64,000 nucleotides of DNA, taken from the NCBI GenBank assembly GCA_026398615.1, contig JAPLSN010000043.1:1-64000 (forward strand), written 5' to 3'. The stretch's first letter is position 1. Every line of letters starts with the position of its first letter. The notes below the pieces were generated by a model that was given only the letters and a program-made list of their open reading frames with translations, made no database searches and had not been told where the DNA came from. Below, piece after piece: positions 45,891 through 53,962 of this stretch. A program made the translations under genes and the position numbers. Origin of the DNA: Spirochaetota bacterium (lineage in GTDB: Bacteria > Spirochaetota > Spirochaetia > Treponematales > UBA12059).

Positions 45891-47192
45891 TCATGCTGTC
45901 TTCACAGGCCAGTATTTCTCGAGGAGCTCGGTCCTCAAGCCCGTTTCCTTGGGGTCGAAACATTCGGCAAGGATTTCCCATCCCTTGTCGAGCGCAGCCT
46001 CCAGGGGAATGTTGACCGAAAGATCCATCATTTCACGTTCAAAGAGTTCGCCGTACCTGAGCAGCTTGGCATCCCAGTTCGACATCTGGAACCCCATGGA
46101 CTTTTTTTCGATCGTGTCCTTGTACGAAGCGTAAAGCTTGATCATGCCATCCATGATCGAACGGTGGTCGGGACGGGTATTGCCGTTCACCTGCTGCTTG
46201 AGACGGGACAGCGAACCGAAAGGCTCGATGCGTCCTCCCTTGAGGTAGAATTGGCCTTCGGTGATATAGCCGGTATTGTCGGGAACGGGATGCGTGACGT
46301 CGTCGCCCGGCATCGTCGTCACGGCGAGGATGGTGATGGAACCGGCGTCCGCGAAATCCACCGCCTTTTCGTAACGGAAGGCAAGCTGGCTGTAGAGATC
46401 GCCGGGGTAGCCGCGATTGGAGGGAACTTGCTCCTGCGTAATGGCGATCTCCTTGAGCGCGTCGGAAAAGTTCGTCATGTCGGTCAGGAGCACGAGAACG
46501 TTCTTGCCCTTGAGTGCGAAGCGTTCGGCTACCGCGAGGGAAATGTCCGGCACCATGAGGCATTCGACGACGGGATCGGAAGCGGTATGCACGAACATGA
46601 TGGTCTTGGAGAAAGCGCCGCCCTCCTCGAGGGCGTCCTTGAAAAAAAGGTAGTCGTCATACTTGAGGCCCATGCCCCCGAGGACGATGATGTCCACTTC
46701 TGCCTGCATGGCAATGCGGGCAAGTAGCTGGTTGTAGGGTTCCCCCGAGACCGAGAATATGGGCAACTTCTGGCTGCGAACGAGGGTGTTGAAAAGGTCA
46801 ATCATCGGGATGCCCGTTCGCACCATGTCGCGCGGTACGATGCGGTTGGCGGGGTTGACCGAGGGGCCGCCGATCCTGATCAGGTTTTCAGCGAGGGCCG
46901 GTCCCTTGTCGCGGGGTACGCCCGCGCCGTCGAAGACGCGGCCGAGGAGGGCGTCGGAGAAACTCACGAGCATCGGGTGGCCGAGGAATCGTACTTCGTC
47001 GCCAGTGGAGATGCCCCGTCCTCCCGCGAACACCTGGAGCGACACGATTTCGTTGTCGAGCCGTATCACCTCGGCCAGCGATTTGCCGAAACGTGTGGAA
47101 ACCTCGGCGAGTTCGCCGTAACGGACCCCGTCTGCACGGACGGTGATTACGTTACCGGTTATGGATTCGATGCGTGAATATATCTTGTTCAT
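45891..47192 (-). CDS. atpB: V-type ATPase subunit B (regulatory)
   Basis: Subunit B is the non-catalytic partner in the A3B3 head. The 433-residue protein has the family N-terminal barrel ([20 protein letters not shown]-like), [14 protein letters not shown], the [17 protein letters not shown] segment where the catalytic subunit has its P-loop, and [19 protein letters not shown]. Later come [18 protein letters not shown]-like strands and [20 protein letters not shown] with the arginine-finger region after it. No Walker A motif is present, as expected. It starts three bases after atpA. Confidence 0.97.
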
Positions 47193-47195
47193 GGC

Positions 47196-48965
47196 TCACT
47201 CCAGGGCTTCGATGTGGCGCGTGGCGGCGATTTCCAGGCCGTCGGACCTTTCGCCGGCGAGCTTCTCGATCCCGGCCTTGATCTCGTTGAAACGAGAGCT
47301 CATCCACTCGGCGCCGTTGAGGTCGAGGAAGAGCTGCCGGAGCTGGTAGAACCACGCGCGGGCGTCGTCCTTGTCCTTGAGCCGGAGCTTGGCGCCAAGG
47401 ATGGTCAGGAGGATCCTGAACATGAAGCGCTGGCGTTCGGGATTGACCGAACAATCGACGGGATCGAAGGAATTCTGCTGGAGGTATACGGCATCGAGCA
47501 ATTCGCCCTTCTGGTAGACGATGTAGTCTTCCTGGCTCGTTCCTTCCTCGCCGACAACCTTCATCATCTGTCCGACCTCGCTCGAACGTTCGAGGAAGCG
47601 GTGGGCATATTTGACGATCGGGGTCTCGATGGATCCATCGTACTTGGACCATGATTCGAGAGGATGGATGGCGGGATATTTCCGCGCTTCGGAACGCTCC
47701 CGGGAAAGACCGTGGAACGCGCCGACGACCTTGAGAGTAGCCTGTGTAACCGGTTCCTCGAAATTCCCGCCAGCGGGAGAAACGGTTCCCCCGATGGTAA
47801 CCGACCCCTTTTCGCCGCTCTTCAACCTGACGATTCCCGCCCTTTCATAGAAGCCGGCTATTACCGATTCGAGGTAGGCCGGGAAAGCTTCCTCACCGGG
47901 GATTTCTTCGAGCCGTCCGGACATCTCGCGCATGGCCTGAGCCCAACGGCTCGTGGAGTCCGCAAGGAGGAGCACGTCGAATCCCATCTGACGGTAGTAT
48001 TCCGCGAGGGTAACCGCGGTGTAGACGGATGCTTCCCGCGCCGCGACCGGCATAGATGAAGTATTGCAGATGATGATGGTCCGTTCCATGAGGGACCGAC
48101 CGGTACGCGGATCTATCAGTTCCGGGAATTCCTTGAGCGTCTCGACCACTTCGCCAGCGCGTTCTCCGCAGGCGGCGATGATGACGATGTCGACCTCGGC
48201 GTTGCGGCTCGTCACTTGCTGGAGCACCGTCTTCCCCGCGCCAAAGGGACCCGGAATGCAGTAGGTTCCGCCCTTCGCGATCGGGAAGAAGGTATCGATG
48301 ATGCGAGTTTTGACCACAAGCGGTTCAACCGGCCGGAGCCGCTCGCTGTAGCACTCGACCGCGCGCTTGACCGGCCACTGGAAGCACATGGTTACGGGCA
48401 CAGTCGTCCCGTCCCGAGCAGTCAGTTCGGCGATCACTTCGTCAACGTCATAGCCGCCCGCCGGCTTGATGGACTTGACGATATAATCGCCCATGAACCC
48501 GAAGGGAACCATGATGCGATGGGTGAATGATCCTTCCGGCACCGTTCCGAGCGTGTCCGCACGCTGGACTTCATCGCCAGGTTTCACGGCTGGAGAAAAA
48601 TCCCAGATCGTGCTCCTCGGGAGCGGGTCCAGATAGATGCCCGGCTCGAGGAAGTTCCCCGATTGCCGGGCAACTTCGGGCAGGGGGTTCTGGAGGCCAT
48701 CGTAGATCTGGCCGAGAAGCCCCGGCCCAAGCTCCACGGCAAGCAGTTCGCCGGTGAATTCCACGCCGTCCCCGATGAGGATGCCCTTGGTTATTTCGAA
48801 GACCTGGAGCTGCACGTGGTCGCCGCGGATGCGGATGACCTCACTCTTGAGCTTCCGGCCCTCTGCGCCGATATAGGCGACCTCGTTCATGGAAACAGCG
48901 CCCGTCACGCGCGCCGTCACCATGTTGCCGTTGACGCCGGTAACTGAACCTTTCGTCGTCGTCAT
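47196..48965 (-). CDS. atpA: V-type ATPase subunit A (catalytic)
   Basis: Subunit A hydrolyses or makes ATP in the cytoplasmic head. The 589-residue protein has the N-terminal barrel (GSVTGVNGNMVTARVTGAV), the bulge domain, Walker A in IPGPFGAGKTVLQQV (about residues 233-247), the catalytic GERAGEV, and Walker B in DVLLLADSTSRWAQAMREMS. The sequence GAFHGLSRERSEARKYPAIH lies near 425, followed by a helical C-terminal domain. Length and motif order are typical. It overlaps the DUF2764-like gene by four bases. Confidence 0.98.
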   Translation of the reverse strand: MTTTKGSVTGVNGNMVTARVTGAVSMNEVAYIGAEGRKLKSEVIRIRGDHVQLQVFEITKGILIGDGVEFTGELLAVELGPGLLGQIYDGLQNPLPEVARQSGNFLEPGIYLDPLPRSTIWDFSPAVKPGDEVQRADTLGTVPEGSFTHRIMVPFGFMGDYIVKSIKPAGGYDVDEVIAELTARDGTTVPVTMCFQWPVKRAVECYSERLRPVEPLVVKTRIIDTFFPIAKGGTYCIPGPFGAGKTVLQQVTSRNAEVDIVIIAACGERAGEVVETLKEFPELIDPRTGRSLMERTIIICNTSSMPVAAREASVYTAVTLAEYYRQMGFDVLLLADSTSRWAQAMREMSGRLEEIPGEEAFPAYLESVIAGFYERAGIVRLKSGEKGSVTIGGTVSPAGGNFEEPVTQATLKVVGAFHGLSRERSEARKYPAIHPLESWSKYDGSIETPIVKYAHRFLERSSEVGQMMKVVGEEGTSQEDYIVYQKGELLDAVYLQQNSFDPVDCSVNPERQRFMFRILLTILGAKLRLKDKDDARAWFYQLRQLFLDLNGAEWMSSRFNEIKAGIEKLAGERSDGLEIAATRHIEALE

Positions 48966-49603
48966 TGATCTCTCCGATCCGGTCGTTTATCGCTGTTTGG
49001 CGCCGGCATGTCAGTCGCTGCGCTCCCGTCGATCCTGCCGCCATCGACGGCGGCCACGCCCGACAGTATTGATTCGTATGCAGAGGAGTAGGCCCGTTCA
49101 CCGCGTTCGGTTTCGAATTTGGCGCGGCGTTCGAGGGCCTGGAGCTTGAGTCCGTAAGCCAGAAGGGATTCGAGATCAAAGAAATGACCTGTCTCCAGCC
49201 GCTCGATCAGGGCCCATCGTTCGCGTTCAATGAGAAGCTCGGCTTCGAGCGGGTTGTCACAGGCCGCGGCGGATTGCGCGACCCTCGCCGCTTCCCATTC
49301 CGGTTCACCTGGCTTGACGTAGCGTTCCGGCGACTTGCCGAGCTGGTGAGCGCGGATCTTTGCCAGCTCGTTCCTGAGCGACAGCTCCCACTTCAGGTAC
49401 GAAGCGAGCAAGGGAGATTCCGCGACTCCCGAGGGAATACTTCCATCTTCTGGGGCGAAGAGCCTGGCACCGCGGAGAATGTCCATGTCACGATCCGTGA
49501 GACAGGTCCCGGCGCGCTCGATAAAAGATTCGTATGAGATGGGTGGAGGCTCTCCGGGCAAGGCGCTCGAAAGCGTCGCCTTGAAATAATAGTACTCGGA
49601 CAC
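48962..49603 (-). CDS. V-type ATPase-associated protein, DUF2764-like
   Basis: The 213-residue cytosolic protein begins SEYYYFKATLSSALPGEPPP. It is otherwise helical, with ERAGTCLTDRDMDILRGA, SYLKWELSLRNELAKIRAHQ and LLAYGLKLQALERRAKF. This matches what I recall of DUF2764, a family found only in V-ATPase operons of spirochaetes, chlamydiae and some others between subunits E and A, where archaea have subunit C. It probably replaces subunit C as the link between rotor and ring, which is inference from position and size. It lies five bases after atpE and overlaps atpA by four. Confidence 0.85.
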   Translation of the reverse strand: MSEYYYFKATLSSALPGEPPPISYESFIERAGTCLTDRDMDILRGARLFAPEDGSIPSGVAESPLLASYLKWELSLRNELAKIRAHQLGKSPERYVKPGEPEWEAARVAQSAAACDNPLEAELLIERERWALIERLETGHFFDLESLLAYGLKLQALERRAKFETERGERAYSSAYESILSGVAAVDGGRIDGSAATDMPAPNSDKRPDRRDQ

Positions 49604-49608
49604 GGGGA

Positions 49609-50223
49609 TCAGGCGCCCTTCCCCGCGGCATCGACGATAGCCGCGAGCTTTCCGTTGAGATACTGGCAGAACAGCGCGGAGACGGCTTCCGCGGAGAAAT
49701 CGTAGTATGCGGCGCCGTTTTTCTCTGTGATGCGGAACCCGGACTTCAGACCCGGGAATGGTTTCAGTTCGAGGCCCTTCCTAAGTTCTGCCCCGAGCTT
49801 GTCCCGAAAGTGGGACTCGATCCTCTTGAGGGTATCAGGCGGGAGGAGTACGGCCAGATCGTCGATGTTCTTCTCTTTCCATGCCGCGAGGACCGCGGGT
49901 ATCGCGATCCCCAGGACGGTTTCGTCGAACGCTTTCACGACCTCGGCCGAGACGACCGCTGACAGGATTTTCTCCACCTCGCCCCTGAAAGCCAGCACGA
50001 GGTTCCGTGAAGCCTGGCCAAGCGCCGCGTTCCCCGCTTCCTCGAAGCGCGCCGCGTCCGTCCTCGCTTTTTCTATGATGGCCCGGGCTTCACGTTCGGC
50101 CGCATCGAGGATCGACTTCTTCCTGGTCTCGGACTCTTCCGCGATCGCTGCTGCCGCCGCATTTGCCTCGTCGACACCTTCCTTCTTGATGCGGTCAAGC
50201 AGTTCCTGAAGACGTATATCCAT
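49609..50223 (-). CDS. atpE: V-type ATPase subunit E (peripheral stalk)
   Basis: Subunit E forms the peripheral stalk that holds the head still. The 204-residue protein starts with a long charged helix rich in Ala, Glu and Arg (LDRIKKEGVDEANAAAAAIA, ERKARAIIEKAR-like). It ends in a mixed alpha/beta domain (LAVLLPPDTLKRIESHFRDK, SGFRITEKNGAAYYDFSAE), the usual E layout. No separate subunit G is evident nearby unless the helical gene upstream takes that role. Confidence 0.92.
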   Translation of the reverse strand: MDIRLQELLDRIKKEGVDEANAAAAAIAEESETRKKSILDAAEREARAIIEKARTDAARFEEAGNAALGQASRNLVLAFRGEVEKILSAVVSAEVVKAFDETVLGIAIPAVLAAWKEKNIDDLAVLLPPDTLKRIESHFRDKLGAELRKGLELKPFPGLKSGFRITEKNGAAYYDFSAEAVSALFCQYLNGKLAAIVDAAGKGA

Positions 50224-50796: not shown

Positions 50797-50868
50797 GCGA
50801 CCGTCGTATAACGGCTATTACCCCAGCCTTCCAAGCTGGAGACGTGGGTTCGACTCCCATCGGTCGCT
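50797..50868 (+). tRNA. tRNA-Gly (anticodon TCC)
   Basis: The 72-base gene folds into a full cloverleaf. The acceptor arms are GCGACCG and CGGTCGC with a T discriminator. The anticodon stem CCAGC/GCTGG encloses CTTCCAA, which gives anticodon TCC. The T arm is GTGGG TTCGACT CCCAT with one G-T pair. No CCA is encoded. It is divergent from the V-ATPase operon. Confidence 0.95.
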
Positions 50869-50876
50869 CTACCATG

Positions 50877-50903
50877 ACAACCCGCCGCCAGGCGGGTTGT
50901 TTC
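50877..50903 (+). terminator. Terminator hairpin of the tRNA-Gly gene
   Basis: The ten-base arms ACAACCCGCC and GGCGGGTTGT pair perfectly around GCCA. They are followed by TTCG, a weak T-tract. The hairpin lies nine bases past the mature 3' end of the tRNA. Confidence 0.75.
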
Positions 50904-50910
50904 GTACCCG

Positions 50911-51060
50911 GACCGATGGGAGTCGAACCGAGTGAGCGACGGCGGGGAGCCGAGACATCGAGGCTCCCCGCCGGCCGCGCCGATGATCGGCGCGGAGCGA
51001 GCGAGGCGGCCCGCAGATCCGAAACACGACGTCGAGGATCGAAGGGGACTCCCATCGGTC
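50911..51060. mobile_element. 150-bp palindromic element with terminal arms copied from tRNA-Gly
   Basis: The ends GACCGATGGGAGTC (50911-50924) and GACTCCCATCGGTC (51047-51060) are perfect 14-base inverted repeats, and each equals the T-arm/acceptor part of the neighbouring tRNA-Gly gene. Inside are two perfect hairpins: CGGCGGGGAGCC/GGCTCCCCGCCG (50940-50973) and CCGCGCCGA/TCGGCGCGG (50975-50995). The whole can fold into a branched cruciform. No open reading frame in it is convincing. It could be a non-autonomous palindromic repeat element, the scar of an integrated element, or a structured RNA; the sequence does not decide. Confidence 0.55.
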
Positions 51061-51064
51061 GCTC
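51047..51064 (+). repeat. 18-bp direct repeat of the tRNA-Gly 3' end (att-like)
   Basis: GACTCCCATCGGTCGCTC occurs here and at 50852-50869, where it forms the 3' end of tRNA-Gly. Direct repeats of a tRNA 3' end are what site-specific integration leaves at the two ends of an element. Here they are only 195 bases apart, too close for an intact integrative element. Confidence 0.7.
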
Positions 51065-51214: not shown

Positions 51215-53521
51215 TCACAGCGCGTGGGATTCCGCCGCCCGCGATGCGGCTCGCAGCGTGGCGAAGCGCCTCTCGAGTTCGTCTATAGCTTGCGCCTTCA
51301 TGAAAAGGTGCCCCTGCATCCCGTAGCAGTTTCGATCGCGGAAATAGGAAAGCTGTTCGACCGTCTCGATGCCCTCTGCGACCACATTGATGCCGAGGCT
51401 TTCGGCGAGGGTGAGTATCGAGTTGACTACCTTTCGGTTCTGCTCATCGTGGAGGGCGCGAACGAAGGATATGTCTATCTTGAGAATATCCACGGGTAGC
51501 CGCGAAAGGTATGAGAGCGAGGAATAGCCGGTTCCGAAGTCGTCAATCGACAACATGATGGCGGGGTATCGGTTTTTTATCTCGAGAATCTTGACCACCG
51601 CGTCATCAGCGTTGCTCATGAGCGTTGTTTCGGTCAGTTCGAGGTTCAGGCGGGCCGGGTTCACCGCCGCCTTGTCAATGGCATCGCATAACGTGCGGAC
51701 GAAGTCAGGCTGCTCGAACTGCTTGCCCGAGACGTTGATGCTGAAGTAGATGTGCCCGAACCCACCGCGCTCGAGGCGACGCAGGTCGATGAAGGCGCGC
51801 CTGAAAACCCAGGCTCCGAGGGGAATTATCATGCCGTTCTGCTCGGCTATGGGTATGAACGAACCCGGGGACATGAACATAGCCCCGGCGCGCCGCCAGC
51901 GTATCAGCGCCTCGACGCCGAGCAGCTTGCCCGTCGGCGCGACAATGGGCTGGTAGTGGAGCTCGAACTCCCCCTTGACCAGCGCCGTGCGTATGTCCTG
52001 TTCGACGCGCCAGCTCTCGTTGGCCTTGGTGTTCAACGATTCGTCGAAGACGGTGACGCGGTTCCTCCCCGCCTCCTTCGAGCAATACATCGCGATGTCG
52101 GCGCTCCTCGTCACCGCTTCCGCGTCCTCTCCGTGCTCGGGCATCACCGCCACGCCGATGCTCACGCCTATCTCGACCCTCGTCTTCGCCCGGGAATCAG
52201 TCGTCACCTCGTAGGGCAATTTCACAGCGCCCAGTATGCGCTCCGCGACGGAAACCGCGCGTTGGGAGTCGAATATCTCCGGCAGGAAAGCCACGAACTC
52301 GTCCCCGCCGAATCGGTAGGACGAGTCCGCCTCGCGCAGGCATACGCGTATGCGGCGCGCCGTCTCCACCAGGAGCTCGTCGCCAGCCGAATGGCCCAGG
52401 GTGTCGTTGATGTGCTTGAACCCGTCAAGGTCGAGGAAGAGGAGTGCCGCATTCCTCCCGTTGCCCAGGATCGACTCACTTAGGAAGGCCTTCATGTCCT
52501 CGTTGAAGAGGTCGCGATTGCCCAGCCCGGTGAGCTTGTCGTGGAAAGCCAGGTGCCGGAGGCGCCTTTCCATGGTCTTGCGCTGGCTTATGTCGCGAAT
52601 GATGCAGGTGAGGGTACGGCCCGAGAAATCGCGGGAATTGCCGAAAGACATCTCCATGGGTGTCACGCCTCTGTTTTTCGTGACGCCGAGGAGCTCGATC
52701 GTACGCTTGAGCCCGAGAGCCAGCCGGTCCTGGTCGTCGACGATAAAATATTTCCTGAACTCATCCAGATGCTTCGCGAAGACTTCTTCAGGGAACAGGA
52801 CCGAAAATTTTCGCTTCACGAGCTCGTCGCGGTCGAATCCGAAGGTGTTCTTCACCCCCGAGTTGACGAAAATAATGTTGAAGTCCTCGTCGAGGCGGAA
52901 GATGGCTTCGGTTATCGTTTCCGAGAGGGCCAGATAGTGGTCCTTGCTTTCCTTCAACTGCTCGATGAGCACCCTGTCTATGGGGCTGTCGCGCAGAACG
53001 GCAATTATCCTGCGTTCGCCGCCGGCCCATACGGGCGAAAGCAGGCATTCCGCGGAGAGGATGGCCCCGTCCTTCGCCTTGGCCTTGAAGTCCATGTAAT
53101 CGTTGGAAAATTCGACGGGGGAGTCTTGGTCGCGGCTGCTGAAACCGACGAGCATCTCGGAGAAGGATGGCCAGTATTCCTCGGGTACGAGGGAGAGGAG
53201 GCTCGAGCCCGCCAATTCGGTGCGTGTCCATCCGTATGCCTGGCAAAAAGCAGGATTGGCCTCGACGACTACTCCTGCGGCCGTGAGGAGTAGGATCGCG
53301 TCCGGGCTGTTCTCAAGGAGTATCTCGAGACTGCCATTCCCCTCGATCTCATCACCGAGTTTTATCCCCCTGCCAGCCAGGAGACGCTGCAGAAGCTGGG
53401 AAAAAATGGATTCGCCGGTTTTCGACAAGGGGCTGTCCTCGACAGAAGAAACATGCTCGATAATCGAAGACTCCGCTTCAGACATGGTTCTTAGCAGGTC
53501 ATTTACGCATTGTCCATCCAT
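51215..53521 (-). CDS. PAS-GGDEF-EAL protein (c-di-GMP turnover)
   Basis: The 768-residue cytosolic protein has two PAS domains (EILLENSPDAILLLTAAGVV near 70; ITEAIFRLDEDFNIIFVNSG near 205), then a GGDEF domain and an EAL domain. The diguanylate cyclase site RFGGDEF is intact and has the inhibitory RxxD motif (READ) five residues before it. The phosphodiesterase domain keeps GVEALIRW, SINVSGKQF, LELTET, DDFGTGYSSLSYL, KIDISFV and AEGIETVEQ, so the catalytic residues appear complete. Either or both activities are possible. The start at 53521 follows a promoter-like sequence; reading further upstream to 53881 gives an unconserved Cys/Arg-rich extension. It is a single gene; PAS domains suggest control by redox state, ligand or partner. 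Confidence 0.93.
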   Translation of the reverse strand: MDGQCVNDLLRTMSEAESSIIEHVSSVEDSPLSKTGESIFSQLLQRLLAGRGIKLGDEIEGNGSLEILLENSPDAILLLTAAGVVVEANPAFCQAYGWTRTELAGSSLLSLVPEEYWPSFSEMLVGFSSRDQDSPVEFSNDYMDFKAKAKDGAILSAECLLSPVWAGGERRIIAVLRDSPIDRVLIEQLKESKDHYLALSETITEAIFRLDEDFNIIFVNSGVKNTFGFDRDELVKRKFSVLFPEEVFAKHLDEFRKYFIVDDQDRLALGLKRTIELLGVTKNRGVTPMEMSFGNSRDFSGRTLTCIIRDISQRKTMERRLRHLAFHDKLTGLGNRDLFNEDMKAFLSESILGNGRNAALLFLDLDGFKHINDTLGHSAGDELLVETARRIRVCLREADSSYRFGGDEFVAFLPEIFDSQRAVSVAERILGAVKLPYEVTTDSRAKTRVEIGVSIGVAVMPEHGEDAEAVTRSADIAMYCSKEAGRNRVTVFDESLNTKANESWRVEQDIRTALVKGEFELHYQPIVAPTGKLLGVEALIRWRRAGAMFMSPGSFIPIAEQNGMIIPLGAWVFRRAFIDLRRLERGGFGHIYFSINVSGKQFEQPDFVRTLCDAIDKAAVNPARLNLELTETTLMSNADDAVVKILEIKNRYPAIMLSIDDFGTGYSSLSYLSRLPVDILKIDISFVRALHDEQNRKVVNSILTLAESLGINVVAEGIETVEQLSYFRDRNCYGMQGHLFMKAQAIDELERRFATLRAASRAAESHAL

Positions 53522-53537
53522 TTTGCTACCCGACCTT

Positions 53538-53568
53538 ATTATCATGCTTGAGGCTGACGCCCTATCAA
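53538..53568 (-). promoter_or_regulatory. Possible promoter of the GGDEF-EAL gene
   Basis: On the minus strand TTGATA (53568-53563) and GATAAT (53543-53538) are 19 bases apart, slightly long. The leader would be about ten bases and the region holds a weak AAGG site. It supports the start at 53521. Confidence 0.45.
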
Positions 53569-53962
53569 TGCAGTATACATGCATTCCATGAGTCCGCGAA
53601 AGCCTCATGTCGCGGCCCATCCGCCCCCGGGCACATGCATTCCAGGAATCCCTCGGCAAGCGACAGCCATATGCAGTCCAGTCGCATGCGACCTTGTCCT
53701 GGAAATCCATCTTGCCCTTCCGGACCGGATCACCCTGCTTCCGGGCCATCCAGGGCATCGCTCCGGCAGCGGGATTCAGGACCTTGACGAGATCCTCGCG
53801 TCCTGTCGTGGGCTCGCAGGCTCCGCATGATGGCGAGCTTGGTGCAGACACGATGGCGGGTTTCACGAGCACCGCCTCCATATTCCTTTCGCGATGACAG
53901 TGGCGATAATGATGGGGACGGAAAGGCCCATTCCCAGCAGTATTATCCTCCAGTCGCCGCTT
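53569..53962. other. Intergenic stretch without a supported gene
   Basis: About 390 bases lie between the SpoU gene and the promoter of the GGDEF-EAL gene. Open frames run through it on both strands because of GC richness, but none has a ribosome-binding site or recognisable protein features. One frame on the minus strand, ending at 53863, codes for a hydrophobic stretch (LLGMGLSVPIIIATVIAKGI), which may be a membrane-peptide remnant. No terminator or repeat was found. Confidence 0.6.

Follow-up and report, generated by a model that had tools for sequence, protein, structure and literature searches.

Gene-free elements of about 190 bp behind tRNA genes of spirochaetes, with arms that match the end of the local tRNA

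The tRNA-Gly(TCC) gene of the analyzed window, a stretch of 64,000 nucleotides from a contig of a Spirochaetota bacterium (JAPLSN010000043.1), is followed on the same strand by a compact set of repeats, which has the tRNA gene on one side and, on the other, the 3' end of a minus-strand gene (51215-53881) that converges on it. From the reading of its ORF, the latter codes for a GGDEF/EAL-type protein, and the ORFs upstream of the tRNA gene (45891-50223, minus strand) for V-type ATPase-like subunits. The repeats can be resolved into an element with a structured core between two arms that repeat the 3' half of the tRNA gene (A1), the left one (A') in inverted and the right one (A2) in direct orientation:

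50797-50869, plus strand: tRNA-Gly(TCC), the target gene (ARAGORN; Rfam tRNA model, 60.6 bits)
About 50847-50869, plus strand: A1, the 3' half of tRNA-Gly from the T-loop to the discriminator
50878-50899, with a T tail to 50902, plus strand: terminator-like hairpin with a 9-bp stem (CAACCCGCC/GGCGGGTTG) between tRNA-Gly and the element (sequence, fold)
50911-50929, plus strand: left arm A', the inverted 3' half of tRNA-Gly, about tRNA positions 52-70 (19 nt, 100%)
50930-51046, plus strand: element core, about 117 bp (covariance-model match at 50922-51050, 75.4 bits)
50930-50939 with 50995-51005, plus strand: helix P2 (GAGTGAGCGA with GAGCGAGCGAG), with tandem G-A mismatches and with P3 and P4 inside it (covariation)
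50940-50951/50962-50973, plus strand: hairpin P3, 12 bp, in its long version (inverted repeat)
50975-50984/50986-50995, plus strand: hairpin P4, 10 bp (inverted repeat, covariation)
51004-51009, plus strand: unpaired conserved AGGCGG, its CGG at least 90% conserved in 110 copies
51010-51046, plus strand: hairpin P5 with tandem G-A, and GGG at its end before the right arm (covariation)
51047-51064, plus strand: right arm A2, the direct 3' half of tRNA-Gly from tRNA position 57 (18 nt, exact)

A sequence-only reading of the window had already described the direct copy and the 14-bp perfect inverted repeats formed by the outer arms (50911-50924 / 51047-51060, 14 nt, 100%), and both are exactly as it gave them. 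The inverted copy, which it placed at 50913-50928, is indeed perfect but extends slightly beyond those limits on either side; of the two inner hairpins that it listed as 12 and 9 bp, the first has the length given, and the second is 10 bp long. A' also has a perfect pairing partner in the tRNA gene itself (inverted repeat 50847-50865 / 50911-50929, 19 nt, 100%), and A2 reads as the displaced former end of tRNA-Gly. The region 50905-51064 has a predicted folding energy of -97 kcal/mol as against -68.3 kcal/mol in shuffles (z = -7.4), and the hairpin at 50878-50902, with a T run of only 3, goes unlisted in a simple terminator scan.

In blastn searches of the 3.38-Mb genome from which the window comes (hereafter the home genome), the region has a single copy, a misleading outcome of the search that had been suggested for finding further ones. 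The covariance-model search suggested alongside it reveals the family that blastn misses: with a model of the core only, built from 15 cores aligned without the tRNA arms and a structure proposed by eye, we recovered 10 copies in the home genome. The core also occurs next to other tRNA genes in related genomes. The model detects it in 30 of the 39 genomes of an order-level sample, where a genome may have as many as 20 copies, and a phylum-wide sample of 296 genomes contains 43 carriers; those with names comprise Candidatus Marispirochaeta associata JC231, in which the element follows a tRNA-Ser gene, and Spirochaetes MAGs. As the same layout recurs in more than 100 copies, the architecture is not a product of chance. 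The family was found to be new in that neither Rfam (where only the tRNA passes at gathering and relaxed thresholds, with no family for the core), nor the plasmid and phage collections, nor the literature, as covered by a search that most subscription journals lie outside, holds a record of it. Viral contigs were considered as carriers and rejected, since the best model match among 58 core-pattern matches (E = 0.004) is not credible.

The copies keep close company with tRNA genes. Of 110 distinct copies, 97 lie downstream of a tRNA or tmRNA gene and on the same strand, with 15 amino-acid types and tmRNA represented, and the distance from the tRNA end to the element is typically 43-68 nt or one array period more. 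Several of the remaining 13 are found at contig ends and some by a tRNA remnant (L105, L140). The second of these, on contig C6 of the home genome, is an orphan element with tRNA-Glu-like arms next to nothing but a tRNA tail fragment, the body of the tRNA being apparently missing. When the arms were scored against the 17-nt tail of the local tRNA and against the other tails in a set of 54, the left arm matched the local tRNA at a mean of 13.6/17 positions versus 9.2 for the others, and the right arm at 14.6/17 versus 9.0; the local tail was strictly the best of the 54 for the left arm in 57 and for the right arm in 63 of the 97 copies. Among 73 scored copies, the start of the right arm falls on tRNA position 56 in 48 copies and on position 57 in 15, making 63 in all, and the left copy ends mostly at tRNA position 52-53. 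In the home genome, inverted tails with at least 14/17 matches occur at 8 of 36 scored tRNAs, of which six have a core that the model detects and two a core remnant; inverted tRNA tails occur there solely with full or partial cores. The idea of an element that targets tRNA genes, raised from the tRNA-Gly locus alone, is thus borne out by many copies beside different tRNAs with arms matching the local one, and it also passed in a hold-out set of 38 copies from six other families, none of them used for the model: 37 lie behind a tRNA gene and the remaining one is truncated where its contig ends, and the local tail is strictly the best for the right arm in 29 of 37 and for the left arm (scored over its T-loop and T-stem portion) in 22 of 37.

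The two arms differ from the tRNA in a one-sided manner, with 118 differences in A' only, 38 in A2 only, and 4 compensated. Since so few are compensated, the arms decay as copied ends would; they are copies rather than a helix under selection, and of the two A' appears to be the older relative to the tRNA.

The extent of what is gained or lost is apparent from loci that differ between genomes. Three genomes of a single genus can be compared at tRNA-Leu(GAG). The locus of G007 (L311) lacks a core, and its terminator is the counterpart of the one that follows A2 in the two occupied loci (G013 L091 and G016 L097), so that the DNA present only in the latter is A1-terminator-A'-core. The tRNA-Met loci can be read in the same way, as the decayed unit of G015 is also found in G018, preceded there by one more unit on the tRNA side, and a comparison of G007 with G013 at tRNA-Gly fits the same unit. 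These loci indicate that A1-terminator-A'-core is gained or lost at the T-loop with the tRNA left intact and its old 3' end displaced; precise loss through recombination between A1 and A2 would give the same locus patterns as gain. The 150-bp block between the arms, which the sequence-only reading had taken as the unit, is present, but what comes or goes comprises the tRNA 3' end, the terminator, the inverted copy and the core. At 28 of 52 loci, the similarity of the 45 nt after A2 to the first terminator exceeds the 99% level of shuffles, and at several loci, including two of the home genome, that stretch is identical to it. Tandem arrays have two to six units, and in 16 of 20 adjacent pairs the copy proximal to the tRNA is the better scoring one (p = 0.012), a polarity that is less clear in the hold-out arrays. 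One array, behind tRNA-Pro (L360 in G231), has at least six units of two alternating types, a pattern that duplication of a block of two units would produce; at another locus, 3' of tRNA-Gly (L070 in G007), a second repeat family (CGCCCGCCGAAGGCGGGC...GTCAATCCATTCC...) is inserted in an older unit, with copies of it repeated nearby.

The passage from one type of tRNA to another is best seen in G031, where the cores behind tRNA-Leu (L167) and tRNA-Met (L190) are 89% alike (distance 0.109), each with arms of the local tRNA and with unrelated terminators. The stretch that they share runs from just past the end of the left arm to the CAAGTCC of the T-loop; thus, the core alone travels. Ordinary site-specific (att) recombination produces no inverted copy and would create a chimeric tRNA upon a change of tRNA type.

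The core itself is a structure under selection. Both partners vary in 24 of the 30 pairs of the seed alignment, for which the covariation score is 0.427, as compared with 0.127 in shuffles and no more than 0.122 in slid controls. In the 110 copies, this is true of 29 of 30 pairs, with a score of 0.539 versus 0.138 in shuffles, figures that are biased toward the structure because this alignment was fitted to a structure derived partly from the same sequences; the slid controls and the hold-out families constitute the safer evidence. Of the 110 copies, 53 have the tandem G-A of P2 (CGAG/CGAG), another 53 have two Watson-Crick pairs in its place, and only 2 are mixed. Across mismatch cells, G.A (410) far exceeds T.C (9), and therefore the relevant folded form is the tRNA-sense strand. 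The core pairs also favor G.T over A.C (35:13, p = 0.002), and G.T accounts for 1.8% of clean core pairs as against 6.2% in the stems of the local tRNAs (p = 3e-8). The paucity of wobble pairs is suggestive, and no more than that, of folded DNA or of template-switching correction (PMC8794818) rather than of a typical RNA. Two other affinities were discarded: that of CsrA-type loops (NGGA in P4/P5), as other copies have ACGA loops, and that of a retrovirus-like primer-binding site, as A' lacks a complement of CCA.

We propose, with a probability of roughly 0.62, that the tRNA-Gly element belongs to a family of very small elements without genes, which target tRNA genes and accrete beside them. 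The unit of about 190 bp would consist of A1, usually a terminator, A' and the structured core, and would come or go at the T-loop of its target, a tRNA or tmRNA gene; the incoming A1 would leave the tRNA complete, and the former 3' half would be displaced to the far end as A2. The tRNA would thereby stay a target, allowing further units to pile up with the newest beside it. To the anatomy, target range, local arms, whole-unit gain or loss, tandem arrays and core constraint documented above, we would add two steps: the core may fold as single-stranded DNA or RNA and be recognized in that form by a recombinase encoded elsewhere, the element being non-autonomous; and when the element reaches a tRNA of another type, strand switching at the universal GGTTCRANTCC may supply arms copied from that tRNA.

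Alternatively, no dedicated enzyme would be needed if template switching during replication, together with recombination by RecA between tRNA tails (quasipalindrome correction), built the arrays and kept the arms matched, and if gene conversion and horizontal transfer spread the cores. Template switching creates and maintains hairpins (PMC8794818), and such a process would suit the exact tandem copies with identical terminators, including those at two loci of the home genome, the arms that follow the local tRNA, and the rarity of G.U in the core helices, which would follow from joint change of the two strands of a stem. We consider it unlikely because it leaves unexplained why there is one core only, why the junction is always at the T-loop and why 15 tRNA types are involved; moreover, gene conversion should be inefficient between cores of about 110 bp with about 60% identity. 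We give still less credence to a structured RNA that serves the host and is cotranscribed with the tRNA, acting, for example, in 3' maturation or on the tRNA level, with A' pairing with the tail or its copy. The strong covariation of the core, the folding of the tRNA-sense strand evident in both the mismatches and the G.T bias, and the invariable placement on the tRNA strand would all be in keeping with it, but the presence of the element is patchy, genomes differ in the tRNAs concerned, tandem arrays and degraded copies occur, the core usually lies beyond the terminator, the arms that make up P1 are uncompensated, and G.U content is low.

A palindromic repeat family mobilized by RAYT (Y1/HUH) transposases in the manner of REP/BIME, to which the folded hairpin core, the RAYT genes within 1.5 kb of a tRNA gene at 9 of 30 RAYT loci (six of them tRNA-Gly) and a RAYT gene directly after a decayed element in G014 (L080) might point, is already weakened to the point of being very improbable, given that the element is present at just 1 of the 30 RAYT loci and that many element-bearing genomes, e.g., G004 with 17 copies, G009, G020, and the complete genome G031 with 7, are without a PF01797 match. 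The RAYT genes less than 1.5 kb from tRNA-Gly come from six genomes of two genera (L336, L340, L331, L339, L346 and L349), and together with those near tRNA-Asn or tRNA-Ser at three more loci they are apparently in excess of what tRNA density would lead one to expect.

If the proposed tRNA-targeted accreting family is real, integration at tRNA ends can take a form of about 190 bp that contains no gene, and one core serves nearly all tRNA types and tmRNA. Although we class the family as a variant of tRNA-end integration, its inverted copy of the local tail, its nearly unrestricted range of tRNAs and its lack of any gene distinguish it, to our knowledge, from all other members. We know of no integration mechanism that predicts such an inverted copy, and it thus makes it possible to test whether an element can incorporate the sequence of its target into its own termini. 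More tentatively, and at odds well short of even, the family could represent a new class of mobile element, with a core that recognizes the T-loop, universal to tRNAs and tmRNA alike, and an insertion step that copies the local tail in both orientations. In that event, the ends would be written afresh at each site rather than inherited, the target would never be damaged, and every tRNA would be a possible home. Units of this kind are common in spirochaetes, with up to 20 per genome, and yet have been missed by island finders, BLAST and Rfam.

A search for a mobilizer among the 39 genomes found no enzyme family that tracks the elements: the reverse transcriptase domain RVT_1 is present in 9 and absent from most element-rich ones, Y1/RAYT transposases are present in 22, and integron integrases over the cut-off in 15. 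The genes listed beside 19 element loci are housekeeping ones, and no autonomous partner was found among them. A group II intron or retroelement was set aside in view of the limited presence of RVT_1.

Among known systems, the tRNA/tmRNA islands of tyrosine integrases (Islander, PMC4383910) share several features with the family: the element sequence keeps the tRNA intact, with a displaced 3' fragment in the same orientation at the far end, the T-loop is a known crossover subsite, and tandem arrays occur. The islands differ in exceeding 2 kb, whereas units of about 190 bp have no room for an internal integrase gene and none is present; further, the element adds an inverted copy of the tRNA tail, and one core serves nearly all tRNA types and tmRNA. 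The Islander filters require an integrase and a 2-kb minimum (PMC4383910), and the element would therefore be discarded by them. Mycobacteriophage Ms6, with its attB in tRNA-Ala, likewise recombines in the 7-nt T-loop, and an altered attP redirects recombination to another tRNA-Ala (PMC1762012); in contrast to the element, Ms6 is a phage with an integrase, needs a matching 26-base core, and has few targets and no inverted copy. REP/BIME and MITEs (PMC3733652) are, like the element, short, non-coding, palindromic, dispersed and probably moved in trans, but the arms of the element copy the local tRNA rather than being fixed, a tRNA neighborhood is obligatory, and RAYT does not track it. The direct copies flanking each unit are 17-18 or more nt of tRNA tail and constitute the tRNA end itself. 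A MITE in the strict sense, with fixed terminal inverted repeats shared with an autonomous partner, was rejected, as the arms match the local tRNA and no partner was seen.

Integron attC sites and cassettes (PMC6393395) also offer folded single-strand substrates in which structure is conserved over sequence, and their arrays grow at one end; the element differs in having no cassette genes, in its site, the tRNA T-loop, and in that an integron integrase over the cut-off is absent from many element-rich genomes. An origin of the core from attC was rejected, with no significant core match near five integron integrases. The repeats by the integron integrase at one locus (L380) begin with CTAACAA, unlike the core. 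The home genome also has an integron integrase (G000:C33:84-1025).
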